A stretch of 64,000 bases of DNA from Phycisphaeraceae bacterium (lineage in GTDB: Bacteria > Planctomycetota > Phycisphaerae > Phycisphaerales > UBA1924): contig RECQ01000053.1 in NCBI GenBank assembly GCA_007693965.1, forward strand, positions 1 through 64,000. The letters are read 5' to 3'. Within the stretch, counting starts at the first letter, position 1. The number at the start of each line of letters is the position of its first letter. Shown piece after piece: positions 30,971 to 37,103 of this stretch. Under the pieces are notes generated by a model that was not told where the DNA came from, made no database searches, and saw only the letters and a program-made list of their open reading frames with translations. Position numbers and translations under genes: made by a program.

Positions 30971-31393
30971 GTGACCAGAGGCCGACAGACCGACCCCGCC
31001 GCACGGTTCCGCTCGACACGGGCCGCCCACCGCGACGAGACCGCCGAGGACTACGTCGAGGCCATCGCCCAGCTCATCGACGAACGCGGCGAGGCCCGCG
31101 TGAAGGACCTCGCTGAGATGATGGGCGTCAGCCATGTCACGGTGTCGCGGATCGTGGCTCGCATTCACAACGAAGGCCTCGTCGACACCGAGCCGCGCCG
31201 GCCGATTCATCTGACTCCGAAAGGCCGGCGCCTCGCCGCACGGGCGAAGGAGCGCCACGAGATCGTCCTCGCTTTTCTGCTGGCCCTCGGCGTGCCGCGG
31301 AAGCAGGCCGAGATCGACACCGAGGGCATCGAGCACCACGTAAGCCAGGCGACGATCGAGGCGATGCGCCGGTTTGCGGGCAAACACGTGTGA
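30971..31393 (+). CDS. mntR: manganese-responsive regulator MntR (DtxR family)
   Basis: A 140-residue repressor. The N-terminal winged helix (EARVKDLAEMMGVSHVTVSR) binds DNA. The metal-site residues of MntR are in place: Asp in AEDYVEAI, His in RHEIVLAFLLALGV, and the E-G-I-E-H pattern in IDTEGIEHHVS, which favours Mn over Fe. It lacks the C-terminal SH3-like domain, as MntR does. GTG 30971 follows GGAG by six bases, and TATGAT at 30932-30937 is a fair -10 box. The likely target is the metal ABC operon whose promoter at 37111-37138 abuts an MntR-box-like palindrome. Confidence 0.93.
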   Translation: MTRGRQTDPAARFRSTRAAHRDETAEDYVEAIAQLIDERGEARVKDLAEMMGVSHVTVSRIVARIHNEGLVDTEPRRPIHLTPKGRRLAARAKERHEIVLAFLLALGVPRKQAEIDTEGIEHHVSQATIEAMRRFAGKHV

Positions 31394-32091: not shown

Positions 32092-33492
32092 TCAAGTATT
32101 CTTCCCCGTCTCCGACGGGTCCCCCGGCGGGATCGGCCGGTCGTGCGGGTCCCGATCCGGTCCCTCCGGCCCCGGCGCCAGCTCCTGCTGCATGGCGGGG
32201 GAGGTGATGTGCTCCAGCTCCATCGCGGTGCGGTGGACGTGGTCCGGGCGCTGGCCCAGCTCCTGGACCAGGTACCGCTCCCAGAGCCGGTGCGAGCGGA
32301 CCAGCCGCCGGGCTTCGGCCCGCCCCGCCTCAGTCAGAACCAGGCGTCCGCCGTCGAGGCGGAGCGAGCCGTCGCGCAGGCAGCACTGCATTGCGCGGCG
32401 GGCCAGTTTCAAGCTTGCTCCCGGCGCCAGGCGCACCAGGAGGCGCAGCGCCGATTCCTGGTCCGGGCCGACCTCGCGCTCGCCGCGGTCCGTCGCTTCC
32501 TCGAACCTGTAGAGAAGCCCCAGCAGGTCCTCGCGCGCGATGCGAAGCGACAGGCGCCGGCGCCGGATCGTCCGCGCGATCGCCCCGTGCCGCGGCGAGC
32601 CCACGATCGCCAGCCCCACCAGCGCCCCGCCCACCACCGCGATCATGCCCGCGGCGTTCAGCGAGTGCTCGGCGCCGAGCCAGATCGGTCCGAACCCCGC
32701 CAGCACGTACCCCGCGATCGCCGCGAGCGCCGCCAGCGTCGCGCTCACGAAGAGCTGCGACGGCAGCCGGTCGGTGAACATCCGCGCCGCCGCGGCCGGG
32801 CAGATGAGCATCGCGATCACCAGGATCGAGCCCACCGCCTCGAAGCTCGCCACCACCACCAGCGCCGTCGCCGCCATCAGCCCGTAATGCACAGCGCTCG
32901 AATTGATCCCCAGCGTGGTGGCGAGGCCGGGATCGAAGGAGGTGATCTTCAATTCCTTGTAGAAGAGCGCGATCAGCGCGACGACCGCAGCGCACACGAT
33001 CGCCAGCGTCACCACCTCCCGCGGCATCGCCATCCACACCGACGGATCGAGCAGCGACGCGAACCCATCCGGCGCCAGCCACAGAATGTCCTCGAGCTGG
33101 CCGTAGAGCACGCAGTCGGCGTCGAGGTCGATGTTGCGCGCTGCCGCCTGCTCCAGCAGCAGCACGCCCGCGGCGAACATGATCGAAAAGACCACGCCCA
33201 TCGACGCCTGCGACTCCACCCGGGCCGCACGGCGCAGGGCCTCGATCAGCACCGTCGCCAGCGTTCCCGCCGCCGCGGCGCCGAGAACCATCGCCGGACT
33301 CGCCCGCGTGCCCGCGATCAGGAACGCGATCACGATCCCCGGCAGCGCCGCGTGCGCGATCGCATCGCCCATCAGGCTCTGGCGGCGCAGCACCAGGAAG
33401 CTGCCGACGAGCGCGCAGGAAACAGTCGCCAGCGTCGCCGCGAGCAGCGCGGGCAGGTCGATCGCGAGGAATTCCTGGGCGCTGAAGCTCAC
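32092..33492 (-). CDS. metal ABC transporter permease with C-terminal DtxR/MntR-like domain (second permease)
   Basis: A 466-residue protein. Residues 1-290 are an ABC-3 family permease with about eight helices (LRRQSLMGDAIAHAALPGIV, ASFEAVGSILVIAMLICPAA) for Mn, Zn or Fe uptake. From about 300 the chain becomes soluble and reads like a DtxR-family regulator: a winged-helix part, LTEAGRAEARRLVRSHRLWE, HVHRTAMELEHI with the E-H metal ligand pair, and DPHDRPIP near the end. Ordinary permeases stop near 280-290 residues. GTG 33492 follows GGGAGG and overlaps the previous stop by four bases. Confidence 0.9.
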   Translation of the reverse strand: MSFSAQEFLAIDLPALLAATLATVSCALVGSFLVLRRQSLMGDAIAHAALPGIVIAFLIAGTRASPAMVLGAAAAGTLATVLIEALRRAARVESQASMGVVFSIMFAAGVLLLEQAAARNIDLDADCVLYGQLEDILWLAPDGFASLLDPSVWMAMPREVVTLAIVCAAVVALIALFYKELKITSFDPGLATTLGINSSAVHYGLMAATALVVVASFEAVGSILVIAMLICPAAAARMFTDRLPSQLFVSATLAALAAIAGYVLAGFGPIWLGAEHSLNAAGMIAVVGGALVGLAIVGSPRHGAIARTIRRRRLSLRIAREDLLGLLYRFEEATDRGEREVGPDQESALRLLVRLAPGASLKLARRAMQCCLRDGSLRLDGGRLVLTEAGRAEARRLVRSHRLWERYLVQELGQRPDHVHRTAMELEHITSPAMQQELAPGPEGPDRDPHDRPIPPGDPSETGKNT

Positions 33493-34919
33493 CGCTTGCC
33501 TCCCTGGGCATCGCCGCCGCCGCGACCGATCGGATGCACGCTCCGCGGCAGGCGTCCTTCTTCCCGCAGGGCGCTCTCGAGCTCGGCGATCAATTCCGGC
33601 GAGAGCGCGTGCTCGACCATGTCCGCCGAGCGATCGACGTGCGACGGCGCGACATCGGCGTAGCGCACCAGATATTCCTCCCACAACCGGTGGTTTCTCG
33701 TGACGCGCCGGGCCGCCTCAGCGCCGCGCTCCGTGAGGGCCGCTTCGCCGTTGCGCATCTCGATCAGCCCGCGGCTGCGCAGGCCGCGCAGCGCCGAGCG
33801 GGCCGAGCCCTCGCTCCACTGCCGCGCCCCGTAGACATCGCCGACCGTTGCGCCGGCCTCGTCCGTTCCCTGCGGCTCGGCGAGCTCATAGAGGGCTCGC
33901 AGGGCATGCTCGCGACCGACCTGGGCCCGCAATTTCAGATGCCGCAGCGCCCGCGGCGCCAGGCCGCGGGCCGGCGCGAAGGTCATGCTGAAGAGAAAGA
34001 TGACGCCCGCCGCCAGCACGATCACAGCGCCCGTCGGCAGCCGCGGCGCCAGCGCCGACGCCGACGCCCCCAGATGCCCGCTCAATCCGCCGATCGCGGC
34101 GCTCGCCGCCGTCATCAGCCACAGCCGATCGGTCCAGAACCGCGCCGCGGCGGGGGGGATGATCAGCAGCGCCACCACCAGCAGCATCCCCACCGCCTGC
34201 AGCCCCGCGACCGTCACCAGCACCACCAGCGCCATCATCAACAGGTCAATCCCGCCGACGGACCAGCCGAGACTGCGCGCATAGTCGGCGTCGAAACAGA
34301 CCAGGCGGAACTGCTTGAACAGCAGCAACGCCGCGGCGACGGCGCACGCCGCCACGCCCGCCATCAGCAGCGCGTTCTCGCGGCTCATCGCGGCGGTCTG
34401 TCCGAAGATGAAGCGCGACAGCCCGCCCTGGGCGCCGCCGTCGAGGCGCTGGATGTAGCTCAGCATCACCACGCCCAGCCCGAAGAAGACGCTCAGCACG
34501 ATGCCGATGGCGGCGTCCTCGCGGATTCGGCTGAAGCGCACAATGCCCTGCACGCTCGCCGCCCCGATGACGCCCGCCACCGCAGCGCCCGCCAGCAGCA
34601 GCGGCATGCTGCGCGCATCGAGGCCGATCCACATCGCCACGAGAAACGCGCCCGCCACCCCCGGCAGCGTCGCGTGGGCCAGGGCGTCGCCCATCAGCGA
34701 GCGCCGGCGCAGCAGCGCGAAGACGCCCACCACGCCCGCCGCGATGCCCAGCATCGTCGTCCCCGCCACCACCACCGCGGCGTTGTGGCCGGCGCGCAGC
34801 GTCATCACATCGAAGACTTCGCCGAGGGTGGGAAGATCGACGCCGACATCGGTGAGCGAGCCGCGCGGCCGGGCGGCGCCGTGAACATGAGCCAGCGCGA
34901 GATGGCCGAGGCCCGTCAT
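33489..34919 (-). CDS. metal ABC transporter permease with C-terminal DtxR/MntR-like domain (first permease)
   Basis: A 476-residue ABC-3 permease (LLRRRSLMGDALAHATLPGV, AGLQAVGMLLVVALLIIPPA) fused to a soluble tail of about 150 residues. The tail has a winged-helix segment (ARSALRGLRSRGLIEMRNGE) and then ALTERGAEAARRVTRNHRLW. DMVEHALSPELIAELE follows, with the conserved E-H pair, and VHPIG stands where DtxR proteins have DPHGxPIP. Its sister permease has the same architecture, so the fusion is ancient rather than an accident. The start overlaps the ATPase stop (ATGA). Confidence 0.9.
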   Translation of the reverse strand: MTGLGHLALAHVHGAARPRGSLTDVGVDLPTLGEVFDVMTLRAGHNAAVVVAGTTMLGIAAGVVGVFALLRRRSLMGDALAHATLPGVAGAFLVAMWIGLDARSMPLLLAGAAVAGVIGAASVQGIVRFSRIREDAAIGIVLSVFFGLGVVMLSYIQRLDGGAQGGLSRFIFGQTAAMSRENALLMAGVAACAVAAALLLFKQFRLVCFDADYARSLGWSVGGIDLLMMALVVLVTVAGLQAVGMLLVVALLIIPPAAARFWTDRLWLMTAASAAIGGLSGHLGASASALAPRLPTGAVIVLAAGVIFLFSMTFAPARGLAPRALRHLKLRAQVGREHALRALYELAEPQGTDEAGATVGDVYGARQWSEGSARSALRGLRSRGLIEMRNGEAALTERGAEAARRVTRNHRLWEEYLVRYADVAPSHVDRSADMVEHALSPELIAELESALREEGRLPRSVHPIGRGGGDAQGGKR

Positions 34920-35746
34920 CAGCCGCCGCGCTCCGCCCGGGCCAGCGCCTGGGCCGCCTGATCGAGCAGCGTGAGACGCCCGCCGTAGGTCTTCTGCAGG
35001 TTCTCAGGTGTGAAGACATCGCCGACCGGCCCCGCCGCCACCACGCGCATGTTGAGCAGCAGGGCGTGGTCGAAGTATTCGGGAACGGTGTGCAGGTCGT
35101 GGTGCACGCAGATCACGGTGCGGCCATGCGCTTTGAGTTCGCGCAGGGTCTCGACGATGGCCTGCTCGGTGGAGGCGTCCACGCCGGCGAAGGGCTCATC
35201 CATGAAGTAGAGCTTCGCCTCCTGCGCCAGGGCCCGGGCCAGGAAGACGCGCTGCTGCTGCCCGCCCGAGAGCTGGCTGATCTGGCGGTTCGCGAGATCG
35301 GTCAGGCCGACTTTCTCCAGGCACGCCATGGCCGCGTCGCGGTGGAGGCGCGACACCGGCTTCATCCACCCGATCCGCCCGTACCGCCCCATGCACACCA
35401 CATCGAGCGCCGACACCGGGAAATCCCAGTCCACCGACTCGCGCTGCGGCACATAGCCGACGATGCCGCGCTGCGCCTTCGCCGGCTTGCCGTAGATCTC
35501 CACGCGCCCCGACGCCATCGGGATGAGTCCGAGGCACGCCTTGATGAGCGTGCTTTTGCCCGCGCCGTTGGGGCCGACGATGGCGATGAGCGAGCGGTCC
35601 GGGGCGTCGTAGTCGATGTCCCACAAAACGGGCTTGCGCCGGTAGGCGACCGTCATGTCATGGATGGAGAGGGGGCTGGCGGCGCTGTGCTCGGGAAGCT
35701 CATCCAGCGAACGCGGCGAGACAACCTGGTGCAGCGGCTTCATCAT
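34919..35746 (-). CDS. metal ABC transporter ATP-binding protein
   Basis: A 275-residue ABC ATPase. Walker A is GPNGAGKST, the Q-loop is [14 protein letters not shown] (typical of Zn/Mn/Fe importers), the signature is [15 protein letters not shown], Walker B is [12 protein letters not shown], and the switch is HHDLHTV. It drives the two permeases encoded next. An N-terminal extension of about 25 residues precedes the usual start. ATG 35746 overlaps the binding-protein stop by four bases, so translation is coupled. Confidence 0.95.
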
Positions 35747-36753
35747 CGGCGCCGGCCGTCCGACTCGCTCTTGATCAGCGACAGCCTGCCGTTCATGCCG
35801 CCGGTGGGCGCCTCGCCGCCGAGGGCGCGCGTGATGGCGGTGATGTTGTGGTCGATCATGCCGATGTAGGTGCCTTCGTAGGTTCCCGCGGCGCCCGTGG
35901 CGTCGGAGAAGAGCTCGGGCCCCAGCGCGACGGTGTACCCCCGGGCGCGGGCGCCGCTCACGAGGGCGCGCACGTTGCGATCGGGCACGGTCGTCTCAGC
36001 GAAGACCGCGGGGATGCGCCGCTCGACAATCATGTTCACCAGATTCTCGATGTCGCGCACACCCGCCTCCGACTCGGTGCTCAAACCCTGCACGCCCAGC
36101 ACCTCGAAGTCGTAGCGCCGGCCGAGGTAGTTGAAGGCGTCGTGGGCCGTGACCAGCACGCGGGACTGTTCGGGAACTGAAGAGAGCGCCTGCCGCGCGT
36201 AGGCGTCCAGCTTCTCGAGCTCGGCCTTGTACGCCTCCGCGCGGCGCGAGTACTCAGGCGCCCCCGCGGGGTCGAGCTCGGCGAGTTTTGCGGCGATGAC
36301 ATCCACCGCCTGCGACCACGCGACCGGATCCATCCACACGTGCGGATCGAAGTGGCCATCGAACTCCTCCGGCGACAGCAGGCTGTCTTCGTCCATCAGC
36401 TCGGTGACGGCGTAGACCGGGCGCCCGGAGCGGGCCACGCGGATGAGGGCGTCGGTCATCTTCCCTTCCAGCAGCAGGCCGTTGTAGAAGACGATGTCGG
36501 CGCCGAGCATGCGCGCCACGTCCGACCGCCCCGGCTTGTAGAGGTGCGGGTCGACGCCGGGCCCGATGATGGTGAAGACACGCACGCGGTCGCCGCCGAC
36601 TTCAGAGGCGACATCGCCGATCATGGAGGTGGTGGCGACAACGCCGATCGTGCGCCCGTCATCCGCTGCGGCGGTGGAAGAGAAGAGCGACACTGCGACT
36701 GCGAGAAGAATGCATGTGATGATCCCGGTGAGGCAGTTGGTGAATCGTGTCAT
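35743..36753 (-). CDS. metal ABC transporter substrate-binding protein, TroA/MntA-like
   Basis: A 336-residue periplasmic cluster A-I binding protein with a signal peptide ([14 protein letters not shown], cut near residue 30). Metal ligands fit TroA: His70 in DPHLYKP, His138 in FDPHVWMDP, His205 in [10 protein letters not shown], and Asp285 in [18 protein letters not shown] is also TroA-like, and there is no His-rich loop as in ZnuA. Mn or Zn is the likely cargo. It is the first gene of a four-gene operon in the troABCD order. ATG 36753 lies at the end of a 330-base leader that includes a heptamer repeat. Confidence 0.93.
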
Positions 36754-36860: not shown

Positions 36861-36958
36861 TCAAAAATCTCAAATCTCAAATCTCAAATCTGTAATTTCA
36901 AATCTCAAATTTGAAATTTGAAATCTGTAATTTCAAATCTGTAATTTCCGATCTGCCA
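36861..36958. repeat. AT-rich heptamer tandem repeat in the metal operon leader
   Basis: About fourteen 7-bp units alternate among TCTCAAA, TTTCAAA, TTTGAAA and TCTGTAA. TTTCAAA and TTTGAAA are reverse complements, so units can pair within the array. It lies between the predicted promoter at 37111-37138 and the binding-protein start at 36753, so it would be transcribed as leader RNA. Confidence 0.85.
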
Positions 36959-37083
36959 TCCTTGCCCTCAAATTCAAAAAACCGAAAACTCGTCTCTACA
37001 CTCCCATCTCTCAGAGCGATCCAGAAACTCCCTCGCTTAATCGCCGCCGCGACCTCGTCGCGTCCTGCCGCCATCCTGCAGCC

Positions 37084-37103
37084 TATGTAGCCATTGCTAC
37101 ATA
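37084..37103. promoter_or_regulatory. candidate MntR box
   Basis: A perfect inverted repeat with arms TATGTAGC and GCTACATA and spacer CATT. E. coli MntR boxes have arms close to ACATAGC/GCTATGT with the same four-base spacing. The site starts about eight bases after the -10 element of the promoter at 37111-37138, so it covers the predicted transcription start. Binding there would block expression of the metal ABC operon. Confidence 0.7.

Follow-up and report, generated by a model that had tools for sequence, protein, structure and literature searches.

DtxR/MntR-like domains fused to both permeases of a probable manganese ABC importer: candidate cytoplasmic metal sensors in a Phycisphaeraceae bacterium

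Why would both permeases of a metal importer end in a domain that resembles a metal-responsive repressor? The question is raised by an operon of a Phycisphaeraceae bacterium (GenBank assembly GCA_007693965.1, contig RECQ01000053.1, positions 1 to 64,000 of the forward strand; this whole stretch of 64,000 nucleotides is "the window" below). The operon probably encodes a manganese ATP-binding cassette (ABC) importer. A first-pass annotation, made from the letters and open reading frames, had described a DtxR/MntR-like extension on each of its two permeases and had offered two readings, a cytoplasmic metal gate and a membrane-tethered DNA-binding regulator. We consider it reasonably likely, but far from settled, that both tails are cytoplasmic DtxR/MntR-fold metal sensors giving post-translational feedback on the importer. 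The permease genes are numbered here against their order in the operon:

33489..34919, minus strand: permease 2, the first permease of the operon, whole gene (476 aa)
33966..34919, minus strand: ABC-3 core of permease 2, residues 1-318 (Pfam ABC-3, E 7e-57)
33489..33965, minus strand: tail of permease 2, residues 319-476, DtxR/MntR-like winged helix plus metal/dimerization domain (Fe_dep_repr_C, E 1.1e-14)
32092..33492, minus strand: permease 1, the second permease of the operon, whole gene (466 aa)
32587..33492, minus strand: ABC-3 core of permease 1, residues 1-302 (Pfam ABC-3, E 1.6e-48)
32092..32586, minus strand: tail of permease 1, residues 303-466, DtxR/MntR-like winged helix plus metal/dimerization domain (Fe_dep_repr_C, E 3.1e-20)

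Core and tail share a single reading frame in each gene; that is, the tail is no free soluble protein. The annotated coordinates and reading frames proved correct, and Pfam searches bore out an ABC-3 core followed by a tail in both sister subunits. PF00950 (ABC-3) scored 166 bits in permease 1 and 193.3 bits in permease 2, against a cut-off of 20.1, and was followed by PF02742 (Fe_dep_repr_C) at residues 387-455 of permease 1 (72.4 bits) and 396-452 of permease 2 (54.6 bits). Since both PF02742 scores exceed the curated cut-off of 27, the assignment of the tails to the DtxR/MntR family stands, and their length, first put at about 150 soluble residues, is about 160. PF02742 and the AlphaFold fold support the description of a winged helix followed by a dimer/metal region, but PF01325, the N-terminal DNA-binding domain, matches neither tail up to E 1 (the window's stand-alone MntR matches at 7.3e-13). 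The tail profile A1 nevertheless matches DtxR-family structures through both halves (positions 24-154 of 158; 5zr4, E 1.3e-30). The genome contains three PF02742 matches, namely, the two tails and the stand-alone MntR. Its other ABC-3 permease, in a second metal ABC locus (contig C34, locus L002), lacks both a PF02742 match and a tail of this kind; the tail is therefore not a general feature of ABC-3 proteins.

AlphaFold models of the permeases, built from 52-row alignments, had mean pLDDT values of 89.1 and 89.7. In the permease 2 model, residue 314 closes the last core helix and residue 320 opens the tail, which consists of a long helix, a pair of helices, a wing of two strands, another long helix, and a final pair of helices; permease 1 is similar. 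Alignment of the models with VIA-align matched the cores to the manganese permease PsaC (7kyp; Z 33.4 and rmsd 2.5 over 281 residues for permease 2, Z 34.0 for permease 1). The tail of permease 2 matched Mn-bound 8pw0 and 5zr6 (Z 15.8 each), and that of permease 1 matched DtxR (2qq9, Z 16.4) and the Mn repressor 5zr6 (Z 16.1), with rmsd values of 1.9-2.6 for the best rows. The membrane orientation of BtuC gives the models a sidedness: because the last core helix is included in the match to BtuC-type permeases, the C terminus is taken as lying in the cytoplasm. Chance similarity of the tails to DtxR was considered and is ruled out by the Pfam scores, by conservation, and by the predicted fold.

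Is the fusion a peculiarity of this contig? At least 51 of 81 genomes of the window's family, its own included, have a tandem pair of tail matches on the same strand at a spacing of 1.0-2.2 kb (a count of tail-profile matches by position and strand, excluding rows with E above 1e-12), and this rules out a local assembly artifact. The tail profile finds a match in 75 of the 81, stand-alone regulators included. Across the window's phylum, PF02742 matches in 83 of 149 genomes. We hand-picked 40 loci (L038-L077) from the phylum list for long open frames; they show forms, not prevalence. Two permeases are present in 25 of them: both tails are full in 16, the first is full and the second partial in 7, and both are degenerate in 2. 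The remaining 15 comprise 11 with one fused permease and 4 with none. In L044-L048 and L051, the second permease has a tail of about 80-95 residues without the full metal domain, and the first keeps its whole tail.

A further sample, the GTDB set, spans many phyla, of which the window's own may be one. Relatives of the tail are encoded at 580 or more places in GTDB contigs. Among the best 80 of these, which were inspected, 79 are fused permeases and one (L135) is a piece of a fused permease cut by the contig edge. In 49 of the best 80, the first permease has a full tail and the second has none; 28 have a single fused permease, with tails longer than 180 residues in 20 of these; in two more, L078 and L079 (Holophagales, Thermoanaerobaculia), the second permease retains a remnant, which brings the range of such remnants to about 80-105 residues overall. 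The titles of the best 80 name Acidobacteriota, Bacteroidota, Verrucomicrobiota, Zixiibacteriota, Hydrogenedentota, Sumerlaeota, Simkaniaceae, Chlorobiaceae, Balneolia, and Thiomicrorhabdus, and cultured strains of Algoriphagus, Pontibacter, Parapedobacter, and Thiomicrorhabdus are among the fused loci. Across the loci sampled, it is usual for the first permease to be tailed, and no pair of full tails was seen outside the window's phylum. The suggestion that fusion in both subunits marks a functional module is qualified by the GTDB loci: in 49 of 51 with two permeases only the first is tailed, so two tails are not needed for general function. Single-permease loci with tails of about 220 residues are L043, L056, L058, L070, L074, and, from Saprospiraceae, loci such as L084; in the two that were tested, L043 and L084, the DtxR domain is followed by a FeoA-like match that is weak (E about 1e-3, below the cut-off), an arrangement as in three-domain DtxR proteins. 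A tblastn search of plasmids matched 1202 records, none over more than 80% of the query, and no fused plasmid copy was seen.

DtxR has ligand positions at H79, E83, and H98. At DtxR positions 10, 79, 83, 98, 102, 105, and 106, permease 1 has D, H, E, H, M, E, and H, and permease 2 has H, H, E, D, D, E, and H. The LEHI and VEHA motifs, annotated as holding an E-H ligand pair, do align with DtxR E105-H106. The HRLWE motif aligns with H79 and E83 but is not specific to tails, since 27 of 52 stand-alone regulators also contain HRLW or HRIW; DPHDRPIP, after the ligand region of permease 1, is the end of the DtxR two-domain unit. In Bacillus subtilis MntR, Mn is bound by D8, E11, H77, E99, E102, and H103 (PMC6860424). 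The alignment places D, G, H, M, E, and H at these positions in permease 1 and H, R, H, D, E, and H in permease 2. Both tails thus keep the positions of MntR H77, E102, and H103 and of DtxR E83; they have D or H at 8, G or R at 11, M or D at 99, and H or D at DtxR position 98. Dimer-interface positions mostly stay hydrophobic in the tails.

Of 136 tails, 131 have the full set of H79, E83, E105, and H106 (DtxR numbering). Those of the window and its phylum contribute 52 of 57 (22/25 permease 1-type, 23/25 permease 2-type, and 7/7 single-permease tails; six second-permease remnants shorter than 115 residues, from 63 permeases in all, are omitted), and the GTDB set contributes 79 of 79, where only positions 98, 102, 105, and 106 are independent because the search seed, RxHRLWExY[LM], contains H79 and E83. 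The five tails that lack the set are L054_C1, which comes from a garbled frame but is included in the counts, and the two tails each of L071 and L077, where the site has decayed. Among stand-alone regulators, the four residues are found together in 41 of 52, or in 50 of 52 without counting E83. In the alignment, the ligand positions belong to the tail's most conserved ones.

The DNA-binding half behaves differently. We compared mean information per position after removing rows more than 60% identical, which left 47 window-phylum tails, 54 GTDB tails, and 21 stand-alone regulators, and drew 18 rows at a time; ranges over the stand-alone draws mean little because that pool has just 21 nonredundant rows. 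The stand-alone set (n = 52) excludes four rows that are not ordinary regulators (the contig-edge piece L135, the transmembrane [TM]-FeoA proteins L075 and L052, and the short, odd row L076_2947), and dropping them enlarged the contrast on the DNA side. The recognition helix (DtxR 37-50) carries 1.61 and 1.80 bits in the window-phylum and GTDB tails, respectively, versus 2.43 bits in stand-alone regulators, and the wing carries 1.30 and 1.30 versus 2.28 bits. At the six ligand positions the values are 3.57 and 4.26 versus 3.38 bits, and at ligand positions 98-106 alone they are 3.49 and 4.23 versus 3.55 bits. Because information is lower at the helix and wing and similar or higher at the ligands, the DNA side appears relaxed and the metal side kept. 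In three genomes of the window's family (L038-L040), the segment of the permease 1 tail that runs between DtxR positions 25 and 62 is 22 residues long, against the 36-37 usual in tails; part of the winged helix-turn-helix (wHTH) is gone and the ligand residues are kept. PF02742 matches in L038, the one of the three that was run.

A tree of 94 rows included 66 of the 136 ABC-3 tails and 22 stand-alone regulators (20 from the loci and 2 references); the remainder was excluded either at random or manually (L054_C1, L061, L062, and L063). A branch with support 100/98 parts all 66 tails from the 22 regulators. The regulator side also holds L037, a fusion discussed below, and the DtxR-FeoA protein L036, and the tail side holds the TM-FeoA proteins L075 and L052. 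One group with moderate support (85/94) unites all 23 permease 2-type tails with 13 of the 16 sampled GTDB tails, and all 21 permease 1-type tails fall outside it. That the permease 1 tail is a recent copy of the permease 2 tail is thus not supported. Because the two types fall apart in the tree, the two tails of the operon are probably old, separate lines, as heterodimer partners would be.

What, then, would such tails do in the operon? Its other genes, a nearby regulator, and an upstream palindrome bear on the answer:

34919..35746, minus strand: ABC ATPase of the same operon, 275 aa (ABC_tran, E 9.8e-27)
35743..36753, minus strand: periplasmic metal-binding protein of the ZnuA/MntC/AztC type (Pfam ZnuA, PF01297, E 3.9e-78)
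30971..31393, plus strand: stand-alone MntR regulator, start codon uncertain (NCBIfam NF008273, 169.4 bits, cut-off 153; PF01325 and PF02742)
37084..37103, no strand: perfect palindrome TATGTAGC-CATT-GCTACATA upstream of the operon, proposed MntR operator

The operon reads binding protein, ATPase, permease 2, permease 1, and adjacent genes overlap by 1 to 4 bases; permease 1 starts with GTG in a 4-base overlap with the stop codon of permease 2. The MntR gene, of the Escherichia coli type, lies on the opposite strand and ends about 700 bases past the 3' end of the operon. The best NCBIfam models for the ATPase are Mn/Fe importer ATPases, and the AztC and MntC models match the binding protein, in each case with scores below their cut-offs. 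We take the transported metal to be Mn on the basis of the MntR neighbor and these Mn-type models, and we consider a manganese importer probable. In a Pfam search the ATPase gave just ABC_tran and overlapping P-loop matches, with no regulatory domain; among metal-transport-like domains, the ABC domain alone exceeds its cut-off.

The palindrome is likely the operator of the separate MntR, and it resembles enterobacterial MntR boxes. A pattern drawn from the site itself has one match at up to 3 mismatches in the window, where 0.02 would be expected. Palindromes resembling TGTAGC-N4-GCTACA stand ahead of the importer operon in several related loci. Among 14 chosen related loci, the palindrome lies directly before the binding-protein gene with 2 to 4 mismatches in L039 (7888), L055 (3566), L060 (3282), and L061 (3366) and directly before the ATPase gene with 4 mismatches in L073 (4578). 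L040 has it twice (2893 and 2919; 2 and 3 mismatches), where it follows the mntR-like gene of that locus and precedes the binding-protein frame by about 1.3 kb. In L038, a form with 5 mismatches stands ahead of the binding-protein gene; in L123, a match with 4 mismatches lies elsewhere; and 6 of the 14 loci have no match at up to 4 mismatches. Between the binding-protein gene and the palindrome, the window, which is about 66% GC, contains an A/T-rich run of AAATCT and AAATTTC repeats (36862-36964).

An upstream operator-like palindrome is what one would look for if the tails were a membrane-tethered transcription factor, with metal-loaded tails binding operator DNA so that the importer represses its own operon; the complete wHTH fold predicted in the tails and its basic charge would also suit such a factor. 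We regard it as unlikely, given that PF01325 matches neither tail, the recognition helix and wing are relaxed, the L038-L040 permease 1 tails have lost part of the wHTH, the sampled tails are separate from repressors in the tree, and an MntR gene above its NCBIfam cut-off adjoins the operon. Judged from these sequence comparisons, that MntR and the palindrome can supply transcriptional control. Of the two readings first offered, the cytoplasmic metal gate fits better and the tethered DNA-binding regulator is disfavored: metal residues are kept, the helix and wing are relaxed, the wHTH is partly lost in L038-L040, and a separate MntR is present.

The neighboring MntR invites another idea, for which MalK-MalT is the model of transporter-regulator coupling. 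A tail could pair with the stand-alone MntR via their shared dimerization domain and so titrate the free regulator, coupling transporter state to transcription. The mostly hydrophobic dimer-interface positions and the gene beside the operon agree with this, but the window's MntR is of the E. coli type and lies across the 100/98 branch from the tails, and in other loci the fusion adjoins different DtxR-type regulators; we consider titration highly improbable.

DtxR proteins close upon metal loading, and the mechanism that we propose for the sensor-type tails would use this movement. Cytosolic Mn2+ (or Fe2+) would load the tails at the hinge between winged helix and dimerization domain, and the two tails would pair with one another like DtxR subunits. 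Domain closure would be transmitted via the linker of about 5 residues between TM8 and tail helix 1, locking the permease pair or the ATPases in a resting state and slowing ATP hydrolysis or inward release (feedback or trans-inhibition). Uptake would halt at once, and the separate MntR would turn transcription off more slowly. The predicted fold, the residues at ligand positions, the operon, the conservation pattern, and the separation from repressors in the tree are computed results; beyond the fold and most of the residues, we infer both metal binding by the tails and gating. The weakest steps are the sign, inhibition and not activation, and the identity of the metal.

The kept ligand positions and the location of the tail directly after TM8 would equally serve a metal acceptor or chaperone, which would take the ion leaving the translocation path and pass it on without gating. 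We think this unlikely. The mostly kept hydrophobicity of the dimer interface and the metal-hinge fold point to allostery rather than to a carrier, and we know of no DtxR domain in an acceptor or chaperone role.

Several observations weigh against a feedback sensor of this kind. The position of MntR Glu11 is Gly in permease 1 and Arg in permease 2, and that of Glu99 is Met and Asp, respectively; because both are replaced, the Mn site is not canonical. At positions 98-106, conservation in the window-phylum tails does not exceed that in stand-alone regulators (3.49 versus 3.55 bits), so the site, as the alignments have it, is kept and not strengthened. Net charge over positions 37-52 is +3.0 and +2.7 in the tails versus +1.8 in stand-alone regulators; such basic charge of the wHTH is like that of DNA- or lipid-binding surfaces, and a lipid-facing surface is an alternative reading. 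Because one tail per permease pair is usual in the GTDB set, pairing of tail 1 with tail 2 cannot be general. Finally, L071 and L077 have lost the ligands in both tails while both permeases persist, so that the sensor can decay with the permeases retained. These degenerate tails, like the short second tails of L044-L048 and L051, would be expected if the tails were structural remnants that merely stabilize the permease pair, their ligand conservation being inherited. Retention of the four ligand-position residues in 131 of 136 tails while the wHTH drifts, at positions among the most conserved of the tail, makes a remnant very unlikely in our estimation.

How does this importer compare with known systems? 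Its permease cores share fold and sequence with the manganese importer PsaBC (7kyo and 7kyp; Z 32-34, 32-34% identity), and the operon has binding-protein and ATPase partners as PsaBC does. PsaBC, however, uses one permease, and the solved PsaC chains, of 258-290 residues, have no tail, whereas here two different permeases are both tailed. With the DtxR/MntR regulators (DR2539 8pw0, 5zr6, DtxR, MntR, and SloR) the tails share the two-domain fold, residues at ligand positions, and a mostly hydrophobic dimer interface; they differ in following TM8 of a permease, in weaker helix and wing conservation, in having no PF01325 match, and in lying across the 100/98 branch. The C2 domain of the methionine importer MetNI sits on the ATPase, and ModBC is similar to MetNI in trans-inhibition. 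MetNI is inhibited by cytosolic substrate at its C2 regulatory domains (PMC12357092). By analogy, cytosolic substrate on a transporter-attached domain would inhibit uptake here as well, but through a DtxR fold on the permease, with an ATPase that has no regulatory domain.

Related attachments occur in the window's phylum. Two proteins encoded beside FeoB (L075:6675-7805 and L052:3743-5431, minus strand) have one TM helix, identified by eye, a DtxR-like domain, and two FeoA domains; in L037 (1447-2553, minus strand), an ABC ATPase is fused to a DtxR metal domain beside an FtsX-type permease and is possibly a metal-sensing transporter ATPase. As in the operon, a DtxR-like metal domain is attached to or beside a transporter in L075 and L052, which lie on the tail side of the 100/98 branch; these cases differ in belonging to other transporter types, and L037 groups with the stand-alone regulators. 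With L037, L075, and L052 in the same phylum, a general use of the DtxR fold as a transporter sensor is plausible. We propose tentatively, and at somewhat less than even likelihood, that a branch of the DtxR fold left DNA to become a transporter-attached cytosolic metal sensor serving unrelated metal transport systems, on ABC-3 permeases in many phyla and in the TM-DtxR-FeoA-FeoA proteins beside FeoB, and that the two tails of the operon form an obligate heterodimeric sensor. On that view, direct metal feedback on transporters would be ancient and widespread in these bacteria as a second tier of Mn/Fe homeostasis.

Literature searches aimed at the fusion, among openly licensed papers and with low sensitivity, found no description of it, although domain databases presumably list the ABC-3/DtxR architecture. 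The fusion is real and widespread, and it is apparently an undescribed type of ABC importer with a cytosolic regulatory domain. Descriptions of Mn and Fe control in bacteria center on transcription, through MntR, DtxR, and Fur. If our reading is correct, a repressor-type sensor within the importer would provide immediate, post-translational control, and the tails would show a route from a DNA-binding regulator to an allosteric transport switch.

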